Source: a virus
Length of the DNA: 46,119 nucleotides
IMG/VR virus record: IMGVR_UViG_3300037087_000772
Coordinates: 64,001-110,119 of that record
Direction: 5' to 3' (one strand)
The notes beneath the pieces were generated by a model. That model searched no databases, was not told the origin of the DNA, and saw only the letters and a program-made list of their open reading frames with translations. Position numbers and translations under genes: made by a program. The stretch's first letter is position 1; each line of letters begins with the position of its first letter. Shown here piece by piece: positions 2,605 to 30,108 of the stretch.

Positions 2605-2856
2605 TTATTTTATACGGGTAATTTTATAAGTTCTTTGGATATATTCATCTCCAATCTCAGCAAATTCTCCCCAATCAGTAATAGTTTCATCCCATTTATC
2701 ATCCAGAACGGTTTCATCTTTCAATTTTTCTTCTAATTCGGGTAATTCTTCCAAAGAATATTCATCGGTATATCCACGACCAGTTAAATCTTTTAAGAGA
2801 AATAATTTTTCTCCATCAATATCTTCATTTATAAAATCTTTATATCTCTTAATCAT
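2605..2856 (-). CDS. Small tagged protein, putative capsid cargo
   Basis: An 83-residue acidic protein starting MIKRYKDFINED, one of the clearest copies of the shared N-terminal tag (compare T4 IPIII MKTYQEFIAEA). The hydrophobic-x-E site INE at 9-11 would release a 72-residue acidic domain containing paired EEL/EEK segments. Last gene of a three-gene minus-strand run (4574 to 2605) with gaps of 4 and 16 nt. The payload is unrecognised; packaging into the prohead is inferred from the tag only. Confidence 0.75.
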   Translation of the reverse strand: MIKRYKDFINEDIDGEKLFLLKDLTGRGYTDEYSLEELPELEEKLKDETVLDDKWDETITDWGEFAEIGDEYIQRTYKITRIK

Positions 2857-6536: not shown

Positions 6537-7028
6537 ATGATAAATATGATATTAGATTATGACAATTTTTTAAACGAGATAAACACTAATCAACAACCAG
6601 TAGCAGCTAAACCAGCACCAGTTGCCAAACCAGCCACACCAGTTGTTGCTAAACCTGTGTCGACTACTAAACCAGTTGTTGCTAAACCTGTTTCTAAATC
6701 CGTAGAACAACCTAAACCCGTAGAACAACCTAAACCCGTAGAACAACCTAAACCCGTAGAACAACCTAAACCAGTTTCGAAACCTGTAAATCAACCTAAA
6801 CCTGTCACATCCAATCAACAACCGAAACCGACTATAAATAATACAGCTGACGTAGAAAAAAAGATTTTAACACATATAACGAACTTATTCGATACCATTA
6901 AAAAGAAAATATCTGGGAAAAAAGAACCCACAACTCCTGAACAAACTAAGGAACAACCAAAAGAGCAACCGACTGAACAAACTAAACAACAACCAACTGA
7001 ACAAAAACAAGAAACACCAATATTATGA
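6537..7028 (+). CDS. Tagged proline-rich repeat protein
   Basis: A 163-residue protein. The N-terminus MINMILDYDNFLNE carries the tag, and an alternative ATG at 6546 would give MILDYDNFLNE. Residues 15-105 are low-complexity Ala/Pro/Lys/Gln, including four perfect VEQPKP units. A short helix follows (KKILTHITNLFDTIKKKISG), then a second low-complexity tail of EQTKEQP-type units. This looks like an extended, disordered spacer around one amphipathic helix. It starts 3 nt after the previous stop and its stop overlaps the next start (ATGA). A disordered, highly charged packaged protein would suit a head-interior role. Confidence 0.75.
   Translation: MINMILDYDNFLNEINTNQQPVAAKPAPVAKPATPVVAKPVSTTKPVVAKPVSKSVEQPKPVEQPKPVEQPKPVEQPKPVSKPVNQPKPVTSNQQPKPTINNTADVEKKILTHITNLFDTIKKKISGKKEPTTPEQTKEQPKEQPTEQTKQQPTEQKQETPIL
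6702..6773 (+). repeat. 18-bp tandem repeat, 4 copies, in coding sequence
   Basis: Four head-to-tail copies of GTAGAACAACCTAAACCC (the last ends in A), encoding VEQPKP four times. The copies are almost identical at DNA level, suggesting recent slippage expansion. Confidence 0.9.
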
Positions 7029-7465: not shown

Positions 7466-7720
7466 ATGAACTCAGAATTAAAAAGAAGGTTTTTCCTTCA
7501 GAAAATTGAAGATTTCAAATCAGATAATTGTCAACCATATCCGACAGTTATTTGTGAAATGGAGCGATCTAATATTATTGAAATAATAAGAAAAAATGTT
7601 CTTTTTTCAACTATAATGAAACCGTGTACTTCATCTAATTTTAATCCAGAAGTAAAAGAAGTATTAGGAAAAGCATCAAATGACTTTGGTGATTTATATA
7701 TTTTAGTATATCCGAATTAA
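7466..7720 (+). CDS. Small hypothetical protein, likely early gene
   Basis: An 84-residue protein. A longer frame begins at 7445, but that ATG touches the -7 box, so the ATG at 7466 (MNSELKRRFFLQKIEDF) is preferred. No domain is recognised. It is one of few plus-strand genes here with a host-type rather than TATATA promoter, suggesting expression soon after infection. Its 3' end overlaps the end of the convergent gene by 4 nt. Confidence 0.6.
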   Translation: MNSELKRRFFLQKIEDFKSDNCQPYPTVICEMERSNIIEIIRKNVLFSTIMKPCTSSNFNPEVKEVLGKASNDFGDLYILVYPN

Positions 7721-8454
7721 TCCTCAAATTTTTCGATCCCAATTACATTGTATTTTCCATCCTCTTTCAGAGTAATTTCATTTTCATCTGGAAAATATAA
7801 GTTATTTATAATAGTTTCATTTACATCTATTTGATCTTTTGTTGTTTCTATTTCAACAATGAATCCGTTGTGATCTTCATTCGCCATTATTGAATTCAGA
7901 AAATCATGATCTATATCTCCTTTTCTTGTAACATAATGTACACCCAATTGATGCTGTTTAATTTTACTTTCATCTTCCACATCAAGATATCTGAATAAGT
8001 GTAACTGACTTGGAATATTCTTGAATCCTATTGGATAATTTAATTCTGTTTTATCCAAACAATTCTGAATACTTTGTTCGGCTGTCCAACCCACTTGACT
8101 ACTATCGGTTAAAGTTGCCATTATTTTTTCCAAATCCAGTTTGGTTATATTACCGAAAGATTTTACAGTATGTTTTTTTGGTTCTTTTAACAATATAGGA
8201 ACATCACTTTTTTTGATTATGAAATCATATTCAAAATAATCGAATTTTCTATATTTTATCTTATTCAGTTTGAATTTGGTTCTCAATATTCCGGCATTTT
8301 CCCTACCATTTGTGAATATCAAAACTTCATCATTCTTTAATCTATTTAAATATTTTCCCCAATTCTTTTTTACATCACTATAAGAATAAATAGTAAATCC
8401 ATCTTTCTCTTTTGCTTCATTAATAAAATTTTCAAATAGTAATAAATATTTCAT
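7717..8454 (-). CDS. Tagged ADP-ribosyltransferase-like protein (Alt-like candidate)
   Basis: A 245-residue protein starting MKYLLLFENFINEAKEKD, with the tag and an INE site. The C-terminal 100 residues fit the R-S-E class of mono-ADP-ribosyltransferases: R155 in a strand (LHLFRYLDV), a GVHYVT segment (171-176) at the usual S-T-S position, NGFIVEIETT, then E224-N-E226 followed by ITLKEDGKYNVIGI, like the E-x-E strand and its partner. The central S is replaced by V/T. In T4, Alt is a tagged, packaged ADP-ribosyltransferase that modifies host RNA polymerase, so this would be a functional analogue. The family assignment is from residue pattern only. Residues 20-140 are unrecognised. Confidence 0.5.
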   Translation of the reverse strand: MKYLLLFENFINEAKEKDGFTIYSYSDVKKNWGKYLNRLKNDEVLIFTNGRENAGILRTKFKLNKIKYRKFDYFEYDFIIKKSDVPILLKEPKKHTVKSFGNITKLDLEKIMATLTDSSQVGWTAEQSIQNCLDKTELNYPIGFKNIPSQLHLFRYLDVEDESKIKQHQLGVHYVTRKGDIDHDFLNSIMANEDHNGFIVEIETTKDQIDVNETIINNLYFPDENEITLKEDGKYNVIGIEKFED

Positions 8455-8457
8455 GAT

Positions 8458-8495
8458 GATATATATTAAAAGTGGTTTGTGAAATTAATATATAA
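8458..8495. promoter_or_regulatory. Divergent TATATA promoter region
   Basis: The plus box TTAATATATAA at 8485-8495 lies 19 nt before the ATG at 8515. On the minus strand TTTTAATATATATC (8458-8471) lies 3 nt before the ATG at 8454; the palindromic plus box could also act leftwards at 30 nt. Confidence 0.5.
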
Positions 8496-8514
8496 CGAAA
8501 AACAATTCTTTCTC

Positions 8515-8937
8515 ATGAAAAATCTAAAAACATTCATTGAATTTATAAATGAAGCTGATGCGAAAACTGCTTTAAATGTAATAGGTAGTAAAGAACAGCA
8601 GAAAACAGATGTCAATCAAGATAGAAAAACTCCTGAGGGTGAGAAAGAACAAAAATTTCAACAGAAAACTAAAAATCAGGCACTCACCAGAACAGATGAA
8701 TTAGAAAAAGCAGCTAAAGACATTGATACCAGACAACAGACAGCCAACAAAAGAATGGATGATATAACATTAAAACAAGATTTATTACCAGATGATCCAA
8801 ATAAAAGGAAAGAGTTTTTAGATTCCACAAAGAATGATCTAAAAGATGTTGAGGGAGAACTTAATAACGCGGAACAACAAAGAAAATCACTTCAAAAACA
8901 AAAAGATAGGATCAAAAATAACTTTTTAAAGAAGTAA
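8515..8937 (+). CDS. Tagged coiled-coil protein, putative capsid cargo or core protein
   Basis: A 140-residue protein. The frame is open from 8479 but the promoter lies inside that extension, so the ATG at 8515 (MKNLKTFIEFINEAD) is chosen. The tag nearly duplicates that of the gene at 2873-3559. After the INE site the protein is highly charged, Gln/Lys/Glu-rich and predicted helical, with a long coiled coil (about 60-140). This composition resembles scaffold-core or internal head proteins. No enzymatic motif is seen. It is followed by its own promoter-led neighbour at 8983. Confidence 0.75.
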   Translation: MKNLKTFIEFINEADAKTALNVIGSKEQQKTDVNQDRKTPEGEKEQKFQQKTKNQALTRTDELEKAAKDIDTRQQTANKRMDDITLKQDLLPDDPNKRKEFLDSTKNDLKDVEGELNNAEQQRKSLQKQKDRIKNNFLKK

Positions 8938-8982: not shown

Positions 8983-11900
8983 ATGGCTAAAATAGACGAA
9001 AAATATGTAGAATCCCTAAACAATTATAGCAAGTCGTTGGAACAAGTGGTCGAACTTTTGCAACAACAGGTTAAGAATAAGGATACAGATATTGTTGAAA
9101 CCATGCTAAAAAATATGGATGGTGATAAATTAAAAAAGATAGTTGATGACCTTAAAGAAATAAACGAAACCTCAAAGAAAATTGAATCTAAACAAGATAA
9201 GATTTTACAAGAGATAAAAGACATAAAGAAACAAAAGGAATCTGGAATGTTTGGTCAGGTTTCAGATCCGAAAAATAAAAATAAAATAGTAGATGGAATT
9301 AAAGTCATCGGTTTGATAGCCGGTGGAGTTTTAGCAATCGGGTTAGCTTTTAAAATTATTGGTCGTGTGGATGTTCTTTCTGTTATCGCTTTAGGTTTAT
9401 CTATCTCGGTTATGGTGGCCACATTTGCTTATGTCAATGAGAAAATAAAAGAACCCGACATTAAGAAAACATCTCTTATAGGTGGAATGATGATTATTGT
9501 CGCTTCCGCTATAACTGTTTCCAGTTGGATATTAAGATCAGCTGCCCCAATAAGTTTGAGAACGGCCCTATCAATAACATTCACATCATTGGCTGTTGGA
9601 AGTTCAATATTCATGATGTCTAAATTAATGGAAAAAACAAAAATAACTCCAAGAGTAGTATTTGGATTCTTATTATTACCATTCTTAGCTCCAATTGTTT
9701 CGATGGCCATAGTTACATCAAGTCATATATTATCAATGACTAAACCATTAGACATGAAGATTGTTGGGAGTGTTCTATTCACTTCATTAGCCCTTGGTAT
9801 CGCTCTTTATGGAATGACCAAGGCATTATCTCAATTAACATGGAAAGGGGCCTTAATCGCTATGTTAGGAAAGGGGGCTATATTAACTATTTTAATTGGT
9901 GCCGTCGCTGGTGGAATTGTTCTCGCTTCTTGGTTATTTAGTAAAATATCTCCAATATCATTAATGCAAGGGGTTACGGCTATTTTCGTAGCGGTAACAT
10001 TAGGTATTACTCTATTCTTAATGAGTAAGGTTATGAAATATGTACAACACATGACCCCAGATAAAGCTGTAACAGTCGGATTAGTGATGTTGGCAATAGC
10101 TGGTGTTATACCAGTTGCCAGTTGGTTATTGAGTAAAACAGAAGTATTCTCATATTCCTTTGCACTTAAATTGGCTGTTACAGGGTTGGCTATTGGAATT
10201 GCTATATTAGCTATATCACCATCTTTCTACATCTTAAAGAAGGCTGGTATAAAATACGAAGATATTTTAAAACTTGGATTGACCGCCATCGCGATAGCCG
10301 CTGTAATTGTGGCTATAAGTCATATATTACCTCTCGGAAATTATACAGGACCATATCCGGGATGGGAATGGTCTTTGGAAGTTGGATTATCATTGGCTGT
10401 TTTCGGTGGAGCAATGTATTTGATTAGTAAATTTTCTGACCCTGTAAAAATGGCACTTGGTGGTCTTGGAGTTTTAATGATATCTGCTACAATTATGTTA
10501 TCAAGTTGGGTTCTTTCAGCTGGTAATTATGATAAATATCCAAAATTAGAATGGTCAGAAGGAGTGGGATTGTCATTAGTGGCTTTTGGTGGTAGTATGG
10601 CTTTATTAGGATGGATGTTTATGAGTGGAGTTGGAATCGCGGCTTTTGCACTTGGCGGACTTGGTGTTTTAATGGTATCAGCAGCAATTATGTTATCAAG
10701 TTGGATTCTTTCTGTTGGTAAATATGGAACATATCCAGATTTAGAATGGTCTAAGGGAGTTGGTCTTTCATTAGTAACATTTGGGGTAAGTATGTCCTTA
10801 TTAGGATGGATGATTCTTGGATCATTTGGATTAGGAATGGGTGCTTTGGCTCTTGGTACTATCGGTACACTCATGGTAGCCAATACCATTGTTGAAGTTT
10901 CTAAAATAATATCAAGAGGAAATTATACAAGAGGTCCTGATGCTAAATGGGCAGCTGGTACTGGTTTATTCATTACAACTGTTGGTACATCTATGATGTT
11001 ATTAGGTGGATTAGTAATGGGAACATTGGGAATGGGAATGATCGCTTTATTAATCGGTAGAGAAGCCACATACATGATAGCTAATACAATTGTTGATATA
11101 TCTAAGGCTTTAGCTGGTGGTTCATACGGTTCGATTATCCCTTTAGATTGGGTGATATCTACTGGAATGTTGATAACAACGGTGGGAGCATCAATGTTAT
11201 TAATGGGTTCTATGATAATGGGGACATTGGGTCTTGGTTGGTTAGCACTTAAAATCGGATCAGCTGGAACATATTTGATAGCAGATACAATTGTCAGAGT
11301 ATCTAAAAAATTATCAGAGGGTGTCTATAAAGGTGGTCCAACAGTAGAATGGGCCAAAGGAGTACAAGCTACTATTTTTGCATTCACTGGAACTATGACA
11401 GGATTAGATAGAATAAGTGATAAAGATTTTAGTTTATTGTCGAAATTAGGGGATTCAATAGTTGATTTTCTACAAAAAATAGATAGATATACTGGAAAAA
11501 GTAATATTCCTGAAATATCAACTAATATTGGTATGTTGGTTAAAAATTTACCATCAAGAGGGGTTGGATCTGAATTGGAATCAGTCGCTAATTCTATAAT
11601 GAAAATATCAAATGCGGGATTAACAACGGCAAATGCCATTGATAGTTTATCGAGATCATTAAAACATTTGGATGACACTTTGAGGGGTACAGATATGGAA
11701 AGTTTCCAGAAGTTGGCAAAATTCTCAAGTACATTCACTACTATTTCATTAATAGATGATATGAAATTACAAAAAGCCATTGATACGATTAAAAATAGAA
11801 GTCTTGATATAACAACCGTTATAGATGATAATTCTTCAAGATTTACTAATGTAACAGTTCCATATGCACCGGGAACAGTTCCTACTATCAACTCTCCGTT

Positions 11901-12063
11901 CTTAGATACAGATAAATTGTATGATCCATTGAGTGATTTAGTTTCATATAATAAAAATATAGATAAAAATATTCAAGAATTATTGAAAATACAGAAAGAT
12001 TCTGTTGATAATTCTGGAGATTATACTGTGAGTTCAGCTTCAAGAATAGGTAATCGTTCCTAA
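8983..12063 (+). CDS. Giant repeat membrane protein (tape-measure-like candidate)
   Basis: A 1026-residue protein. Residues 1-95 are a charged coiled coil. From about 105 to 790 it is almost entirely hydrophobic, built of about ten units with a period near 66 residues. Each unit has a signature like SSWILSxG followed by two membrane-length helices; later units add a loop of the form GxYxxxPxxEWxxGVG. Unit signatures start near residues 176, 240, 309, 374, 440, 503, 568, 635, 702 and 769. The last about 230 residues are soluble and helical. Long hydrophobic, repetitive phage proteins are often tape-measure or ejection-pore proteins, but no tail genes flank it and I cannot assign it. The gene has a TATATA promoter. 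Confidence 0.8.
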   Translation: MAKIDEKYVESLNNYSKSLEQVVELLQQQVKNKDTDIVETMLKNMDGDKLKKIVDDLKEINETSKKIESKQDKILQEIKDIKKQKESGMFGQVSDPKNKNKIVDGIKVIGLIAGGVLAIGLAFKIIGRVDVLSVIALGLSISVMVATFAYVNEKIKEPDIKKTSLIGGMMIIVASAITVSSWILRSAAPISLRTALSITFTSLAVGSSIFMMSKLMEKTKITPRVVFGFLLLPFLAPIVSMAIVTSSHILSMTKPLDMKIVGSVLFTSLALGIALYGMTKALSQLTWKGALIAMLGKGAILTILIGAVAGGIVLASWLFSKISPISLMQGVTAIFVAVTLGITLFLMSKVMKYVQHMTPDKAVTVGLVMLAIAGVIPVASWLLSKTEVFSYSFALKLAVTGLAIGIAILAISPSFYILKKAGIKYEDILKLGLTAIAIAAVIVAISHILPLGNYTGPYPGWEWSLEVGLSLAVFGGAMYLISKFSDPVKMALGGLGVLMISATIMLSSWVLSAGNYDKYPKLEWSEGVGLSLVAFGGSMALLGWMFMSGVGIAAFALGGLGVLMVSAAIMLSSWILSVGKYGTYPDLEWSKGVGLSLVTFGVSMSLLGWMILGSFGLGMGALALGTIGTLMVANTIVEVSKIISRGNYTRGPDAKWAAGTGLFITTVGTSMMLLGGLVMGTLGMGMIALLIGREATYMIANTIVDISKALAGGSYGSIIPLDWVISTGMLITTVGASMLLMGSMIMGTLGLGWLALKIGSAGTYLIADTIVRVSKKLSEGVYKGGPTVEWAKGVQATIFAFTGTMTGLDRISDKDFSLLSKLGDSIVDFLQKIDRYTGKSNIPEISTNIGMLVKNLPSRGVGSELESVANSIMKISNAGLTTANAIDSLSRSLKHLDDTLRGTDMESFQKLAKFSSTFTTISLIDDMKLQKAIDTIKNRSLDITTVIDDNSSRFTNVTVPYAPGTVPTINSPFLDTDKLYDPLSDLVSYNKNIDKNIQELLKIQKDSVDNSGDYTVSSASRIGNRS

Positions 12064-12120: not shown

Positions 12121-12549
12121 ATGTTTAGAAAAATAAAAAATTATTATACCTATCGTAAAATTATCAAACAGAATCTACCAACATTAACATCGAGATATAA
12201 TTTGAAGTTTGATCCCGTTTATGGAAGATTATGGACTGTTTTTAATTTACCATTAGAAAATCATGAAACTGTTCGTAAATATGGTTATCGTTATCTGGAT
12301 GATCAGGTAAAAAAGTATATCAGTTCATTACAAATATATTTCTGGGATATTGGTCTTGGTGAATTAATATCAATAAGAAAAACAGATATGATTGATACGG
12401 TCAATGTCTTAATTGTTTTTCGATATAAATATCACGGATCTCAAACACTCTTATATACAGCTATAATTTTAGCTTCTATCATAGGTGGAAGCATATTAAT
12501 CGGTGGATTAGTAAAATTGATGATCTTTTTGTTCGGATTGATTTTTTAA
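12121..12549 (+). CDS. Hypothetical membrane-anchored protein
   Basis: A 142-residue protein. A basic, tyrosine-rich soluble N-terminal part (1-100) is followed by one or two C-terminal membrane segments with a glycine break (LLYTAIILASIIGGSILIGG and the following LMIFLFGLIF). There is no signal peptide, so it looks like a tail-anchored inner-membrane or virion protein. Starts after its own promoter; the next gene begins 2 nt after its stop. Function unknown. Confidence 0.7.
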   Translation: MFRKIKNYYTYRKIIKQNLPTLTSRYNLKFDPVYGRLWTVFNLPLENHETVRKYGYRYLDDQVKKYISSLQIYFWDIGLGELISIRKTDMIDTVNVLIVFRYKYHGSQTLLYTAIILASIIGGSILIGGLVKLMIFLFGLIF

Positions 12550-12831: not shown

Positions 12832-13296
12832 ATGGCAGAATTACAAAAAACAAGTGAAGATGTTATTCAATATTTTGAAAACATAGAAAAAAATTTAGCA
12901 CATGCTTTTGATGTGAAGTATGTCTTTGTGACAAATGACAAATCAAAGAAGTTAATTAAGGTAAGTAAATTATCAGATCCGTTTTTATTTTTATTGAACG
13001 CTCATATTTTAGTTACTTTCAATGAAAAATTCTTTGAAAATTTCGATGACCAAGAAAAAGAAATTCTTATAAGTCAGGAATTGGATAAAATTGAATGTGA
13101 TGCTGAAAAAGGTCAAGTAAAAATAAATTCCAATCCGTTAATTTCGACTTCAAGTGGAATCATTGAAAAATTCACCTTGGAACTTGTCAAAAACGCTAAT
13201 AAATTAGAACGAGAATATTTGGCACAATTAAAAGAAAAGGAAAAAGAAGAAAAGGCCGCTAAAGGTGGTGGGAAAAAAGGTAGAAAAAGATTCTAA
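12832..13296 (+). CDS. Degenerate phage metallopeptidase-like protein
   Basis: A 154-residue protein resembling the putative phage metallopeptidase family (PF18894 type): a strand ILVTFNEKFFENF, then DDQEKEILISQELDKIECD where active members have HELxH, then KINSNPLIS. Both metal-binding histidines are missing (QELDK), so it is probably catalytically dead and structural. The C-terminus is a lysine/glycine-rich basic tail (KGGGKKGRKRF) that could bind nucleic acid. It heads a compact run with the genes at 13318 and 13670. Confidence 0.45.
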   Translation: MAELQKTSEDVIQYFENIEKNLAHAFDVKYVFVTNDKSKKLIKVSKLSDPFLFLLNAHILVTFNEKFFENFDDQEKEILISQELDKIECDAEKGQVKINSNPLISTSSGIIEKFTLELVKNANKLEREYLAQLKEKEKEEKAAKGGGKKGRKRF

Positions 13297-13669: not shown

Positions 13670-14578
13670 ATGAATAAGAAAATGGAAGAGAAAGAATTAA
13701 AGGACTTCGCATTAACAGAAGGGGAATACAACAAATACAAAGACGCTGAAATTAAAACATCCTTAGAAGATCTTGAAAAATTTGATTTTTCGAGTGATGC
13801 TCAACTTAATTTAGATGAATATGCTGAAATGGTTCATCTTTTAGAATTAACTCAAAACCCAACCGAAGAAAAAAGAGAAGCTCTTAAAGCACAAGATGCT
13901 GAGAATGTTATCTTGAAAGAAGGAGAAAAATTTGTAGGGAAAGAAGTTGTCGAACAATTTGAAAAAGAAAGACAAAGACTAAAAGATTTTCTTCGTAAAT
14001 ACGAAGTAAATACCGAATTAGTCAAGAATATGAGTGAACCAGAAAAAAATAAACTTTATGAAATAGCCAATTTCTTATTCAGTAATTTTCAAAAGCTACA
14101 TAATAATTTGAACATTATATTTCCACTATCCATTGAAGAATTTAAATTTGTCAATGAGGTTATCACAAAGAAATTAGATTATGACAGGGATGGTTGTTTT
14201 CAAGTAAAAGAACTTAAAGAAACATATCTGAATCATTATCCAAAATTCATTAAGAGTGATGTTAATGTTACCGATATGGGAACTATAATCAACATCAATA
14301 CTCTTATGATTTTATATCACCACATAACCAGATATAAAGTTAAAGGAGCTCAAACTGAATTTGATTTATTCATCAGTATGGTTACAAAGATGGAAGAAAG
14401 ACTTATGTTATACAACGCTTATAAAATTTTAACAGAGAGATTGAGTCAAGAATTCGTGGTATGGGGTGGTGCAATTTCAGTAGATGAAGAATCTGTTGTT
14501 GGTAATACTGGTCAACCACAAACTGAAGTTAAAGATGAATTAAAAGTAGTTGATGAAGTAACAGGAAAAGAAAAATAA
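13670..14578 (+). CDS. Hypothetical helical protein
   Basis: A 302-residue, strongly helical and charged protein with a Met-rich start (MNKKMEEKE; the ATG at 13682 is an alternative). The C-terminal about 35 residues are acidic and disordered. No catalytic motif, membrane segment or known domain. It closes the 12832-14578 run and is followed by a terminator at 14597. Confidence 0.65.
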   Translation: MNKKMEEKELKDFALTEGEYNKYKDAEIKTSLEDLEKFDFSSDAQLNLDEYAEMVHLLELTQNPTEEKREALKAQDAENVILKEGEKFVGKEVVEQFEKERQRLKDFLRKYEVNTELVKNMSEPEKNKLYEIANFLFSNFQKLHNNLNIIFPLSIEEFKFVNEVITKKLDYDRDGCFQVKELKETYLNHYPKFIKSDVNVTDMGTIININTLMILYHHITRYKVKGAQTEFDLFISMVTKMEERLMLYNAYKILTERLSQEFVVWGGAISVDEESVVGNTGQPQTEVKDELKVVDEVTGKEK

Positions 14579-23411: not shown

Positions 23412-25319
23412 TTATTTTACTTCAGTGAATTCTACATCCTGAACATCCTCTGGTGGTTGTTTTGGTCCTTTTTGAGTTTCACCAGATGTATTCTGTTGTT
23501 GAGTTGTTTCACCACCCTGACTCTGTTGGTACATTTTCGTAGAAATAGAATTCCACTTTTCATTCAGTTCGTTTGTAAGACTATCAACTGTTGGAATGTC
23601 CTTTATGGAATGTGCCTGTCTGAGTTTATCAAGAGTTTCCTTTAATGTAGTTCTATCACTTTCAGTTAATTTCTCTCCAAAATCTTTGATGTTTTTTTCA
23701 CTCTGGAAAATTGAGGCATCTGCTTTATTAAGTTTATCAATATCATCCTTTTCTTTCTTGTCCTTTTCTTCATTTTCCTGAGCTTCCCTTTTCATCCTTT
23801 CAATTTCATCCTTGGATAAATTTGAAGAACCTTCAATACGGATATTCTGTTTCTTCTGAGTTGCTTTGTCAACAGCCAAGACTTCGATGATACCGTTCGC
23901 GTTGATATCCAACGAAACACTGATTTGCGGCACGCCTCGTGGTGCTGGTGGTAATCCATCCAATATAAATTTTCCTAAGGATTTATTATCCTTAGCCATT
24001 GGACGCTCCCCTTGAAGAACATGAATCTCTACGGATGGTTGATTATCAGCGGCCGTTGAAAAAACTTCAGTTTTTGATACTGGAATTGTAGTATTAGCTT
24101 CAACCAATTTTGTGAATACCCCACCGAATGTTTCAATTCCAAGTGAAAGAGGGGTAACATCAAGTAATAAAATATCCTTTACTTCACCACCAATAATACC
24201 AGCTTGGATGGCTGCTCCAACGGCAACGGCTTCATCAGGATTAACTGATCGGTTTGGTTCTTTTCCGAAAATACTTTTAACAAGTGTCTGAACGGCTGGA
24301 ATTCTTGTTGAACCACCGACCAAAACGATTTCATCCAGTTCTTCTTTTTTCAAACCACTATCCTCAAGGGCTTTTCTTGAAATAGGAATCAATCTCTGGA
24401 AAATAGGATCACAAATTTGATCGAATTTGGCTCTGTTAAGTTTTACAACCATGTGTTTAGGAACACCATCAATCGGCATTATATAAGGTAGGTTGATTTC
24501 TGTTTCAACAGAAGAAGAAAGTTCAATCTTAGCTTTCTCGGCTGCATCTTTTAATCTTTGGAGTGCCATCGGATCTTTCTTTAAATCCACACCACCATTT
24601 TCTTTTCTGAATCCCTCATTCAACCAATCTACAATAGCATCATCAATATCATTACCTCCAAGGTGGACATCACCATAAGTTGATTTCACCTCAAAAACAC
24701 CTTCACCTGATTCAAGAACAGACACATCGAATGTACCACCACCAAAGTCGAACACAACAATCTTCATATCCTTGTTCTGTTTGTCCAATCCGTAAGCGAG
24801 AGCTGCGGCCGTTGGTTCATTTACTATCCTTTCAACTTTGAAACCAGCGATTTCACCAGCCTCTTTAGTCGCCTGTCTTTGTTCATTATTAAACCAAGCC
24901 GGAACAGTAATAACTGCTCTGTCTACGGTTTGACCAAGATAATCCTCGGCTGTTTTCTTCATTTTTTGAAGAATCATTGCACTGATTTCCTGAGGGGTGA
25001 AATCTTTACCATCAATACTGACAACAGGATTACCATTACTTGCCCTTTTAACAGGAAATGATACCCTTTTGATTTCATCGGTCAATTTTTCGTATTTCTC
25101 ACCCATGAATCTTTTAATGGATGATATTGTTCTTGGACTGTTAGTTACCTGTTGACGGCGAGCTGGTGCTCCTACTTTTCTTTCACTATCAATGAAAGCT
25201 ACAATACTCGGTGTGGTTCTTTGTCCTTCACTGTTTGCGATAATAACGGGAACTCCGCCTTCCATTACAGCAACGGCACTAAAAGTAGTTCCTAAGTCGA
25301 TTCCTACAATTTTACTCAT
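23412..25319 (-). CDS. dnaK: Chaperone DnaK (Hsp70)
   Basis: A 635-residue full-length Hsp70. The nucleotide-binding domain starts [20 protein letters not shown] (TTF-S where most bacteria have TTN-S). Phosphate-2 [13 protein letters not shown] and [11 protein letters not shown] are intact. The substrate-binding domain begins at [14 protein letters not shown], followed by a helical lid and the C-terminal [11 protein letters not shown] for cofactor interaction. No DnaJ or GrpE is adjacent. Its base composition is clearly less AT-rich than surrounding genes, pointing to acquisition from a bacterium or selection for expression. It probably aids folding or assembly of phage proteins, or substitutes for host DnaK. 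Confidence 0.98.
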
Positions 25320-25655: not shown

Positions 25656-25991
25656 TCATTCATTATTTATCCATTCATGTCCACAGACTAAACAAGTTAC
25701 TAATCTACCCCAACTACTGGTTTTAGGATGTTCACAAGTTTCGTTTTTTGAATTTTCAAAACCTTTTGTTATTTGAACTTCAGTTCCTTTCGGAAAGTAC
25801 ATACTTTTTACACAATAATTCATTTGAGGCAAAGTATATTCCACTTCAATTATATCTCCATTCTTCACAAGTTCATCAAGAACATCGGTAATATTCTGAT
25901 CTGGTTCATTATTGGTCATGAATCTTACGACAATTTCAGTTGCTTTAATCGGGCCAAACTCGTTTACTATTTCAATTATTTTTTCTCTCAT
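25656..25991 (-). CDS. Winged-helix plus zinc-ribbon protein
   Basis: A 111-residue protein. The N-terminal 75 residues look like a winged helix: MREKIIEIVNEFGPIKATEI, then ITDVLDELVKNGDIIEVEY as recognition helix and wing. The C-terminus has a zinc-ribbon pattern (ETCEHPKT, then CLVCGHEW). A DNA-binding regulator is plausible. Located upstream of dnaK on the same strand. Confidence 0.55.
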   Translation of the reverse strand: MREKIIEIVNEFGPIKATEIVVRFMTNNEPDQNITDVLDELVKNGDIIEVEYTLPQMNYCVKSMYFPKGTEVQITKGFENSKNETCEHPKTSSWGRLVTCLVCGHEWINNE

Positions 25992-26053
25992 ACTTCACTT
26001 TTTCTTAATATAATAAAAAAATCAATAAAAAAAAAAGAAAATGAGTTTTTTAC

Positions 26054-26065
26054 TTTAATATATAA
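26054..26065 (+). promoter_or_regulatory. TATATA-type (putative late) promoter
   Basis: TTTAATATATAA, 22 nt before the ATG at 26088; it rules out the long upstream extension of this frame. Confidence 0.6.
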
Positions 26066-26087
26066 TAGAAAAAATAAAAAACGACAT

Positions 26088-27203
26088 ATGGAAATTACCA
26101 CGAGAGACATCAGAATAGCTTTCTACGAATTAGGAAGAATCTTAGAAAAATTAAACAACACTGTTTTATTAATCAATGAAAAATATGGTGAAAATCAGGG
26201 GAAACTTTTTGAAGCTGGTTTCTGGGATAGATTGAAAACTGGTGCTGGAAAAGTGGGATCAGCAATTGGTGGAGCAGCAGGATCAGTAAAGAATATAGGT
26301 ACAACCGCCGTAGACAGAACAAAACAAGCCGTATCAACAGCTATAGATAAAACAAAACAAGTCGCCACTTCAGCTTATGATAAAGGAAAACAATTAGGTC
26401 AACAAGCAGTTACAGCAATTGGTGAAATCGCTAATAAAGTCGCTGGATATTTTTCTCAAGCTTTTCAATGGATCTCAGAACAACCTGAAGCTTTCTGGAA
26501 CAAAGTAAAAGAGGGATGGGATAATGTAGCTGATCAAATAGCTAAAATGAAAGAAACAGCAGGTGATAAATTCCAATTAAATGTCGGTTTAATTCTCGAA
26601 GATATAAACAAGAAATTATGTAAGAAATTAAGAGAACTAACAAATGATAAACAAATGGGTGCTTATGCAATCGCAAGAAAAAGACCATCAGATTTTAAAG
26701 GTAAATACGCTAAATTCAAAGGAACATTTCAAGCAGTAGGTCAAGAATTGGTAAAGAGTAAATACGCCGCTGCTAAGGAATTCGGTCAAAAATTATTGGA
26801 TTCACTTGAACAAGGAGCAGAAGATGTATTCTATTTCACATTAGGATTGATTTTAGTACCTTTTTACGCTGTTGGTTGGGTAGCAAAGAAATTAATGGTT
26901 TTGGGTATTGATTTTGGTCATGTTGTAGAAGAATTCATTAAAACAGCCAAGGTAGAATTACCTGAGGTTTGGAGTGAGTTTAAAGGTGGAGTTAAAACTG
27001 GTTATCAAGAAAAAACAGAACCAGCTACAGTTCCAACAACTGAACCAGCAGCTCCTGTTACACCAGCCCCAGCTACTGAAAGAACAATTTTAAGATTTGC
27101 TGATTTTGTTAATGAAAAAAAGAAATTGAAAAAGAAAGACAGAGAAAAAGGAAAAATATGTGATGATTGTAAAAAATTTCCATGTGAATGTCCAACTGAA
27201 TAA
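26088..27203 (+). CDS. Helical protein with a C-terminal tag-like motif and Cys tail
   Basis: A 371-residue protein. The frame is open far upstream, but the TATATA box sets the start at 26088 (MEITTRDIRIAFYELG). A Gly/Ala-rich amphipathic stretch (about 45-115) with TAVDRTKQAVSTAIDKTKQ-type repeats resembles membrane-active or LEA-like helices. A hydrophobic helix follows at about 255-275. A Pro/Thr/Ala linker then leads to ILRFADFVNEKKK, very like the shared N-terminal tag but near the C-terminus, and a Cys tail (CDDCKKFPCECP). Ends at a strong terminator. Possibly a virion or ejection protein. Confidence 0.65.
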   Translation: MEITTRDIRIAFYELGRILEKLNNTVLLINEKYGENQGKLFEAGFWDRLKTGAGKVGSAIGGAAGSVKNIGTTAVDRTKQAVSTAIDKTKQVATSAYDKGKQLGQQAVTAIGEIANKVAGYFSQAFQWISEQPEAFWNKVKEGWDNVADQIAKMKETAGDKFQLNVGLILEDINKKLCKKLRELTNDKQMGAYAIARKRPSDFKGKYAKFKGTFQAVGQELVKSKYAAAKEFGQKLLDSLEQGAEDVFYFTLGLILVPFYAVGWVAKKLMVLGIDFGHVVEEFIKTAKVELPEVWSEFKGGVKTGYQEKTEPATVPTTEPAAPVTPAPATERTILRFADFVNEKKKLKKKDREKGKICDDCKKFPCECPTE

Positions 27204-28641: not shown

Positions 28642-30108
28642 TTACCACCTACGAAGTTTTCCCCACACTACCATTAACTTAGTTTTGATACTTGGGTTCA
28701 ATTCACGATTTAACCACAGTTTAGCACCCTTTAAAGTGGTAAATTCGAGGTTATCCTGAGCTTCATCTGCCTTCTTCAAGATTTCACCGAACTTCAATCC
28801 CGGCTTCATCCCGATTTCAATCAGATGGCGACCCATCAGAATGGACTTCCTCTGTTCAGTTGTAACATGGAGTGTCTTTGCGAGATTCCATACTTCCTCG
28901 ATTTCAGTCCTAACTTTAAGAATCCTTTCTTCATCGACATTATCCCTACCCAGAGCATCAGCCTCAATAACAAAGAGTAAATCCTTGATAGTAGACGGAT
29001 GAATGTTCTTAGAAAGTCTCAGAAGAGCTTTCTTCCTACTACTCAGTCCGTTGATTGAAAAGATGTTGACATGAGCCAAATGGAACTTAATCAGTTTTAC
29101 AATCTGTTCGACCAACACTGGTTTAATTCCAATCCTGTTAAGGATTTCTTCAGCCATCACAGCACCTAATCCCTCATGACCCTTACTTGTAACACAAATT
29201 CTACCACCCTTTTCTTCATGTTCGGTAGTTTGTGGTTTTGCGATATCATGAAGTAACATGGTAAACATGAACTTGGCTCTTTCATCCTCGACAATTCCCT
29301 CTCTTTCACAAATACTCAACATCCTTTTCATGGTCAGTTGGGTATGCTTTTCAACATCACCCTCTGGGTGCCAAATCGGGTCTTGTTCAGTATCTTTCAG
29401 AAGTCCAAGTTCAGGAATAACGACCATAGAACCACTTTCACGAAGAAAATCAAAAATCAGTTCAGGGTGTTTTCCCTTAATTGCCCATTTCATGAATTCT
29501 TCGGATAACCTTTCTTTCGGAAGATGTTTCAGTTCTTCAGACATTTCCCTCATGACCTCAAAAGTTTCAGGTGCCACAGTAAATCCAAAACGGGATTGAA
29601 ACTGTAAACCCCTCAGAACCCTAAGAGAATCTTCCTTAAACTTATCAGAAGTATGACGAATGATACCATTCTGTAAATCTTCCAGACCGTTAAAGAAGTC
29701 AAAAAGGATATTGTTAATTGGGTCGAAACCCAGAGCGTTCCATGTAAAATCCCTACGGAGAGCGGCTTCTTCTTTGGTCATTGGTTCGAAACTAACTTCG
29801 AAATCCTTATGACCAACACCAAGACGATTTTCCTTACGAGGTACGGAAAAATCACATTCCAAATTATCTTTTTTGAATTTCAAAATACCGAAACTCTTAC
29901 CTACGGAATCAACCTTTCCAAGACGGGAAAGAATCTTATCAAGTTGTTCGACAGTACATCCATGCACTTCAATATCAATATCTTTCGGATCAATTTCCAT
30001 AAATTTATCACGGACACATCCCCCGATCAATACGGGTTCAAATCCATTTTTACGGAGTTCCTGAAGAATCGAAATTAATATGTTATCGGTGAATGTGATG
30101 TTCGTCAT
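28642..30108 (-). CDS. cca: CCA tRNA nucleotidyltransferase with HD domain
   Basis: A 488-residue class II CCA-adding enzyme. The nucleotidyltransferase head has GGCVRD (29-34) and D43-I-D45 for metal binding, followed by the RRDFTWNAL motif and an ADDGID-like NGLEDLQNG segment. The tRNA-binding helices include SLRVLRGLQF. A C-terminal HD phosphohydrolase domain (HPEGDVEKHTQL, HDIAKP, KGHEGLG) makes it a bacterial multifunctional form. It adds or repairs the 3' CCA of tRNAs, perhaps repairing tRNAs damaged during infection. Base composition is richer in GC than its neighbours. Led by a host-type promoter, suggesting early expression. Confidence 0.95.
   Translation of the reverse strand: MTNITFTDNILISILQELRKNGFEPVLIGGCVRDKFMEIDPKDIDIEVHGCTVEQLDKILSRLGKVDSVGKSFGILKFKKDNLECDFSVPRKENRLGVGHKDFEVSFEPMTKEEAALRRDFTWNALGFDPINNILFDFFNGLEDLQNGIIRHTSDKFKEDSLRVLRGLQFQSRFGFTVAPETFEVMREMSEELKHLPKERLSEEFMKWAIKGKHPELIFDFLRESGSMVVIPELGLLKDTEQDPIWHPEGDVEKHTQLTMKRMLSICEREGIVEDERAKFMFTMLLHDIAKPQTTEHEEKGGRICVTSKGHEGLGAVMAEEILNRIGIKPVLVEQIVKLIKFHLAHVNIFSINGLSSRKKALLRLSKNIHPSTIKDLLFVIEADALGRDNVDEERILKVRTEIEEVWNLAKTLHVTTEQRKSILMGRHLIEIGMKPGLKFGEILKKADEAQDNLEFTTLKGAKLWLNRELNPSIKTKLMVVWGKLRRW

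Follow-up and report, generated by a model that had tools for sequence, protein, structure and literature searches.

An uninterrupted open reading frame in a window of 46,119 nt (bases 64001-110119 of a 110-kb viral record) encodes a 1026-aa protein of tandem membrane hairpins, which is probably the tape measure protein (TMP) of a giant phage with a contractile tail, its ruler being made of these hairpins. Our observations on this protein and its relatives comprise regular units, the gain and loss of whole units, a gradient from hydrophobic to polar units, an all-helical structure prediction, a conserved gene cassette and the position of similar proteins in the tail module of isolated phages. 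The initial annotation of the window had regarded the protein as a length-defined structure, such as a tape measure or an ejection channel; the ruler part of that suggestion has gained support from the modular lengths of homologs, from the standing of the protein as the best candidate in a 735-kb genome, from the tail modules of isolates and from one reported tail length. Coordinates of the features are collected in Table 1.

Repeat array of the 1026-aa protein

The initial annotation had proposed ten units of about 66 residues, and ten in-register units were recovered on the basis of a unit HMM, a lag test and shuffled sequences. The HMM found exactly ten copies, each scoring 54-91 bits, whereas 200 shuffled sequences reached no more than 9.6; as the same ten copies had been used to train it, it gives no independent scores for them, and the shuffles and the lag test serve as controls. 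In the latter, lags 67 and 65 were the peaks of BLOSUM self-similarity (+0.18 and -0.21), the best of 30 shuffles reaching -0.42. Unit cores were located at residues 180, 246, 315, 379, 445, 507, 572, 639, 706 and 773, about 4 residues after the positions first described. Irregular spacing had been set beforehand as the finding that would speak against the repeat; the spacing is regular, within 62-69 residues, successive cores being separated by 66, 69, 64, 66, 62, 65, 67, 67 and 67 residues. When every ORF in five related genomes or contigs was searched with the unit HMM, the orthologs were its sole matches. Two unit types can be distinguished, units 1-4 having a short SSWIL-x4-PIS turn and units 5-10 a GNYxxYPxxEW turn.

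The general plan of a coiled coil, ten hairpins and a soluble tail has stood, and to it we add a degenerate hairpin that precedes unit 1. The units are hairpins as judged from hydropathy and predicted secondary structure: the protein has at least 17 hydrophobic segments, about 20 being predicted. Structure prediction, a check named at the outset, gave with AlphaFold two helices per unit and helices throughout, with no strands, but the tertiary arrangement is of low confidence (pLDDT 51.5, pTM 0.31). In being long and mostly alpha-helical, the protein resembles known tape measures.

Such a polytopic composition, together with the small membrane-segment protein that is nearly always encoded alongside, would also suit a non-virion membrane protein made during infection, acting in superinfection exclusion, as a membrane scaffold or as a lysis accessory. 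We consider this quite improbable, because the protein starts with a soluble coiled coil and not with a signal, every homolog listed shows the hydrophobic-to-polar gradient with the same spacing, the isolates have their similar proteins at a tail-module location, and the giant phage would then have no visible tape measure.

Table 1. Features of the hairpin-repeat gene, its downstream cassette and two other genes of the window
Feature	Position	Strand	Description
Hairpin-repeat protein CDS	8983..12063	+	1026 aa, ATG start, uninterrupted ORF; proposed tape measure protein
N-terminal soluble, coiled-coil-like helices	8983..9240	+	residues 1-86; predicted helices 2-31, 36-43, 47-86
Degenerate hairpin 0	9268..9444	+	residues 96-154; family conservation is highest here, LAxGxAFK..G....SV
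Ten tandem two-helix units of about 66 aa	9442..11415	+	residues 154-811; unit HMM, predicted helices
Region of units 5-7, tandem DNA duplication	10453..10812	+	period 195 bp (65 aa), 81% matches
Soluble helical C-terminal tail	11416..12060	+	residues 812-1026
C-terminal motif common to PTm5, PAU, pT24 and MA9V proteins	11614..11784	+	residues 878-934; hhalign
Cassette gene 1	12121..12549	+	142 aa (about 143 across loci); hydrophobic C-terminal segment; 68/73 loci
Cassette gene 2	12832..13296	+	154 aa in the window (143 across loci); PhageMetallopep-like (PF18894), without HExxH
Cassette gene 3	13670..14578	+	302 aa (221-302 across loci), mostly helical; 68/73 loci
HSP70/DnaK	23412-25319	-	Pfam E 1e-239
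tRNA nucleotidyltransferase	28642-30108	-	PHROG E 2e-72

Family members and modular length

Searches of Pfam and PHROG with the 1026-aa protein gave no convincing family match and none of the TMP families, a weak match to a PHROG 'tail protein' (E 0.023) covering the coiled coil only, and two orthologs searched against Pfam and PHROGs matched no curated TMP family above threshold; this is why the protein is not filed in the curated TMP families. By tblastn, relatives were found in Mahaphage genomes of 735, 642 and 635 kb (LR756501/LR756503, LR756502 and LR745206). Genomes of these sizes are assigned by Al-Shayeb and colleagues to the Mahaphage clade, with predicted Bacteroidetes hosts (PMC7162821); in 2020 the Mahaphage genomes were the largest reported from phages, and we found no tape measure protein named for them in that paper, from which the word 'tape' is absent. 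A profile search of IMG/VR found 107 relatives, of which 80 were retrieved, and removal of identical sequences left 67 full-length proteins of 804-1691 aa. The hairpin-repeat family is real, conserved and widespread.

The 67 full-length homologs have 8-20 units, and their length is described by 325 + 70 x units (r = 0.85). When close relatives (59-91% identity) are compared, gaps of at least 20 aa mostly correspond to one unit or a multiple of it; their sizes are 60 (at 83% identity), 118 (82%), 63+59 (73%), 61, 63, 63, 67, 131, 174 (91%) and 230 aa, with 83, 49 and 34 aa being off the unit size. In a pair at 71% identity, gaps of 61 and 63 aa run in opposite directions, and between loci L102 and L105 one unit has been gained and one lost in compensation. 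The polar units of the 735-kb phage correspond to tandem DNA repeats of 174 and 183 bp, and such tandem DNA duplications show how the unit arrays grow. Because the gaps are mostly unit-sized and the DNA repeats are in tandem, the proteins of the family lengthen and shorten in evolution by whole units, while their ends are conserved. Variation of length by repeat number with conserved ends is common in tape measures, although not exclusive to them. Among the homologs listed, mean hydropathy is about 1.2 in the first units and declines along the array to reach about 0; on the N-terminal side there are 5-12 hydrophobic units, which are followed by 1-10 polar units on the C-terminal side.

Repeat proteins generally gain and lose units, and the unit number of a structural solenoid or scaffold in some other role, for example a component of the neck, head or baseplate, might drift neutrally. 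The compensating change between L102 and L105 would fit such drift, as would the ability of a shorter coiled coil to fill the same slot in the genome; nevertheless the elongated helical architecture with its conserved ends, together with the single tail length that agrees, makes this explanation very unlikely.

Neighbouring genes

A three-gene cassette lies directly downstream on the same strand in 68 of the 73 loci. For the PhageMetallopep-like product, HExxH was sought in 68 cassette proteins and found in none (0/68), and the protein therefore resembles a pseudo-enzyme that has been retained for some other function. The 302-aa product has a confident predicted fold (pLDDT 82.8), and comparison of its model with the PDB gave no match to a known fold at E <= 0.001. 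Near the cassette, mostly on the opposite strand, a protein of about 1900 aa is encoded in 41 of the 73 loci (L005 15052-20784 and its orthologs, cluster 6).

Five loci have a tail sheath gene (phrog_34521, E 5e-81) in the same orientation 0.9-8.5 kb upstream, a tail-tube gene (phrog_45) adjoins the cassette in L004, and baseplate hub genes are found in L118 at a distance of 5-9 kb. Sheath, tube or baseplate genes are present within 10 kb in 7 of the 73 giant-phage loci, where gene order is scattered. The sheath synteny of the megaphages, which we had first taken as strong, was downgraded to weak support because five of 73 loci is near the random-position expectation and the scattered gene order alone could give about this number. 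A search for a sheath gene in the 110-kb fragment of this phage found none. In the 636-kb genome LR756504, a 493-aa coiled coil that has no membrane segments (L154 12445-13926) takes the place of the hairpin protein beside an otherwise intact cassette, so that the hairpins can be dispensed with; we saw no further long protein with multiple hairpins in LR756504.

Many ORFs of the window, including 2605-2856(-), those at 6537 and 7025, 7717-8454(-) and 8479-8937, begin with a motif (e.g. MKNLKTFIEFINE|A) that we take to be like the T4 capsid-targeting sequence, and the motif is seen also in LR756501. In the latter, a loose core motif occurs in residues 1-16 of 114 of the 1016 ORFs, compared with 22 and 39 at two control positions, and judging from this enrichment dozens of its proteins are possibly packaged in the head. 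Tags of this kind on neighbouring ORFs would agree with a pilot or ejection protein, carried in the head or the tail of the virion, which forms a membrane channel through which DNA or protein enters and does not measure the tail; the many hydrophobic hairpins of the 1026-aa protein, and the conserved partner gene whose product also has a hydrophobic C-terminal segment, point the same way. However, the 1026-aa protein itself carries no capsid-targeting tag, lengths in the family vary by whole units as a ruler predicts, the 735-kb genome yielded no other ruler candidate, and the similar proteins of isolates sit in the tail module, on the basis of which we regard a pilot or ejection protein as unlikely.

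Search for other ruler candidates

Contractile tails are known to need a ruler, and because no other candidate emerged in the 735-kb genome, the hairpin protein is the best tape-measure candidate there. It has 23 hydrophobic segments, compared with 7 in the next protein, and the other ORFs longer than 1000 aa are enzyme-like, fibre-like or of low helix propensity. Those of the long ORFs that were scanned against PHROGs matched ribonucleotide reductase, tRNA nucleotidyltransferase or families without a known function, or had no match at all, and none of them matched a tape measure family.

In the window, ORF 25773-27203 (+), which has weak matches to PHROG tape-measure families, was considered as a rival ruler and rejected; it is short (371 aa from the likely ATG at 26088), and no hit to it was obtained in the related genomes compared. 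Near its C-terminus this ORF has a capsid-targeting-like motif, FADFVNE.

Similar proteins in isolated jumbo phages

Sheath similarity pointed to the Tenacibaculum phages PTm1, PTm5 and pT24, the Sphingomonas phage PAU, the Chryseobacterium phages MA9V-1 and MA9V-2, the Flavobacterium phage MaF61 and the Lak megaphages. At about 3-10 kb from the sheath gene we found multi-hairpin proteins, namely PAU gp97 (1096 aa), MA9V1_009 and MA9V2_061 (1082 aa), PTm5 ORF-027 (883 aa) and pT24_118 (925 aa), which have been annotated without a tape-measure role; in the stretch of MaF61 examined, no multi-hairpin protein was found. The gene is a single 883-aa ORF in PTm5 (L166 9643-12294) and is split into the overlapping ORF-027 and ORF-028 in PTm1 (L155 26635-29285).

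Like the window family, the proteins of PAU, MA9V, PTm5 and pT24 consist of a soluble start, hydrophobic hairpins and a soluble end with the C-terminal motif. They differ in that their hydropathy period is 54-60 aa, at total lengths of 883-1096 aa, whereas that of the window protein is 66 aa, and the hairpin region has no secure similarity. An hhalign comparison of the window family with the isolate proteins joined them via the C-terminal motif with probability 97.2, score 103.8 and E 3.1e-11, and among the controls for this motif, none of ten column shuffles scored above 21.4 and the reversed control scored 34.8. A HMMER similarity between the family profile and PTm1 ORF-028 (E 9.6e-8) was discarded, since over the whole protein the similarity to PTm1 and PTm5 was no better than shuffles after bias correction. 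As far as sequence comparison goes, the link of the window family to the PTm1 and PTm5 proteins is secure in the short C-terminal motif only. The conserved three-gene cassette was sought in the isolates and not found. MA9V2_061 matches phrog_4372 over its hydrophobic part with E 9.6e-7, to which composition may contribute; the PHROG tape-measure families (phrog_4372, phrog_58 and others) show no match to the window protein or to the megaphage orthologs.

The contractile tail of MA9V-1 has been reported to be 170.34 nm long (PMC10537231). At 0.15 nm per residue, the 1082 residues of its protein would span 162 nm, a single point from a distant relative; if the hairpins stayed folded in the tube, the length expected for MA9V-1 would be clearly shorter than 162 nm. 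A literature search for the tail lengths of PTm1, PAU and Lak found none. In Lak-A1 (Prevotella megaphage, MK250016), positions 153837-160001 (-) encode a 2054-aa protein when TAG is read as Q, which has 22 hydrophobic segments, a hydropathy period of 64-66 aa and a polar C-terminal half, in resemblance to the window family, but shows no significant sequence similarity to it (hhalign probability 4.3). This protein is a candidate for the Lak tape measure.

Proposed mechanism and significance

As a tape measure, several copies of the hairpin protein would be extended along the lumen of the tail tube as long helices, the two tail ends being contacted by the coiled coil at the N-terminus and by the conserved domain at the C-terminus. 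The number of residues would determine how long the tail becomes, each residue adding about 0.15 nm, which gives about 154 nm for 1026 aa and about 10 nm per unit. Upon tail contraction, the protein would be ejected before the DNA; its hydrophobic N-terminal units would then refold as hairpins within the inner membrane of the host and provide a passage for the DNA, and the polar C-terminal units would remain outside this membrane. In this scheme the presence of the protein in the tail, the ruler role, the ejection and the pore formation are what we infer.

Deletions within the repeats or the hydrophobic region of the TP901-1 TMP give shorter tails, and infection depends on the first of its hydrophobic regions (PMC5099701); the diffocin TMP CD1366 is trimeric, and each chain has five predicted membrane helices (PMC10996793). 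Both proteins, with six predicted segments in TP901-1 and five in CD1366, combine a long helical ruler with hydrophobic segments that probably enter the membrane, as proposed here, and repeats are present in the TP901-1 protein as in the window protein. However, the repeats of the TP901-1 protein lie apart from its hydrophobic segments, whereas in the window protein the repeat unit is the membrane hairpin, and about 20 predicted segments with a gradient along the protein distinguish it from both. In the literature searched, we found no description of a ruler repeat and a membrane segment in one unit.

We tentatively propose, at somewhat less than even chances, that ruler and membrane channel are one repeat in the largest known phages: in an unannotated protein family distributed among megaphages with predicted Bacteroidetes hosts, the 66-aa unit would account for about 10 nm when packed and become a membrane hairpin after ejection, and tail length and pore size would co-evolve by whole units. 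If the protein is the tape measure, sequences would suffice to predict the tail lengths of uncultured giants, with about 154 nm expected here and 254 nm in the 735-kb phage, and a function would be assigned to an unannotated family of more than 100 members, which would provide a regular, countable system for how a tail ruler turns into a membrane passage.
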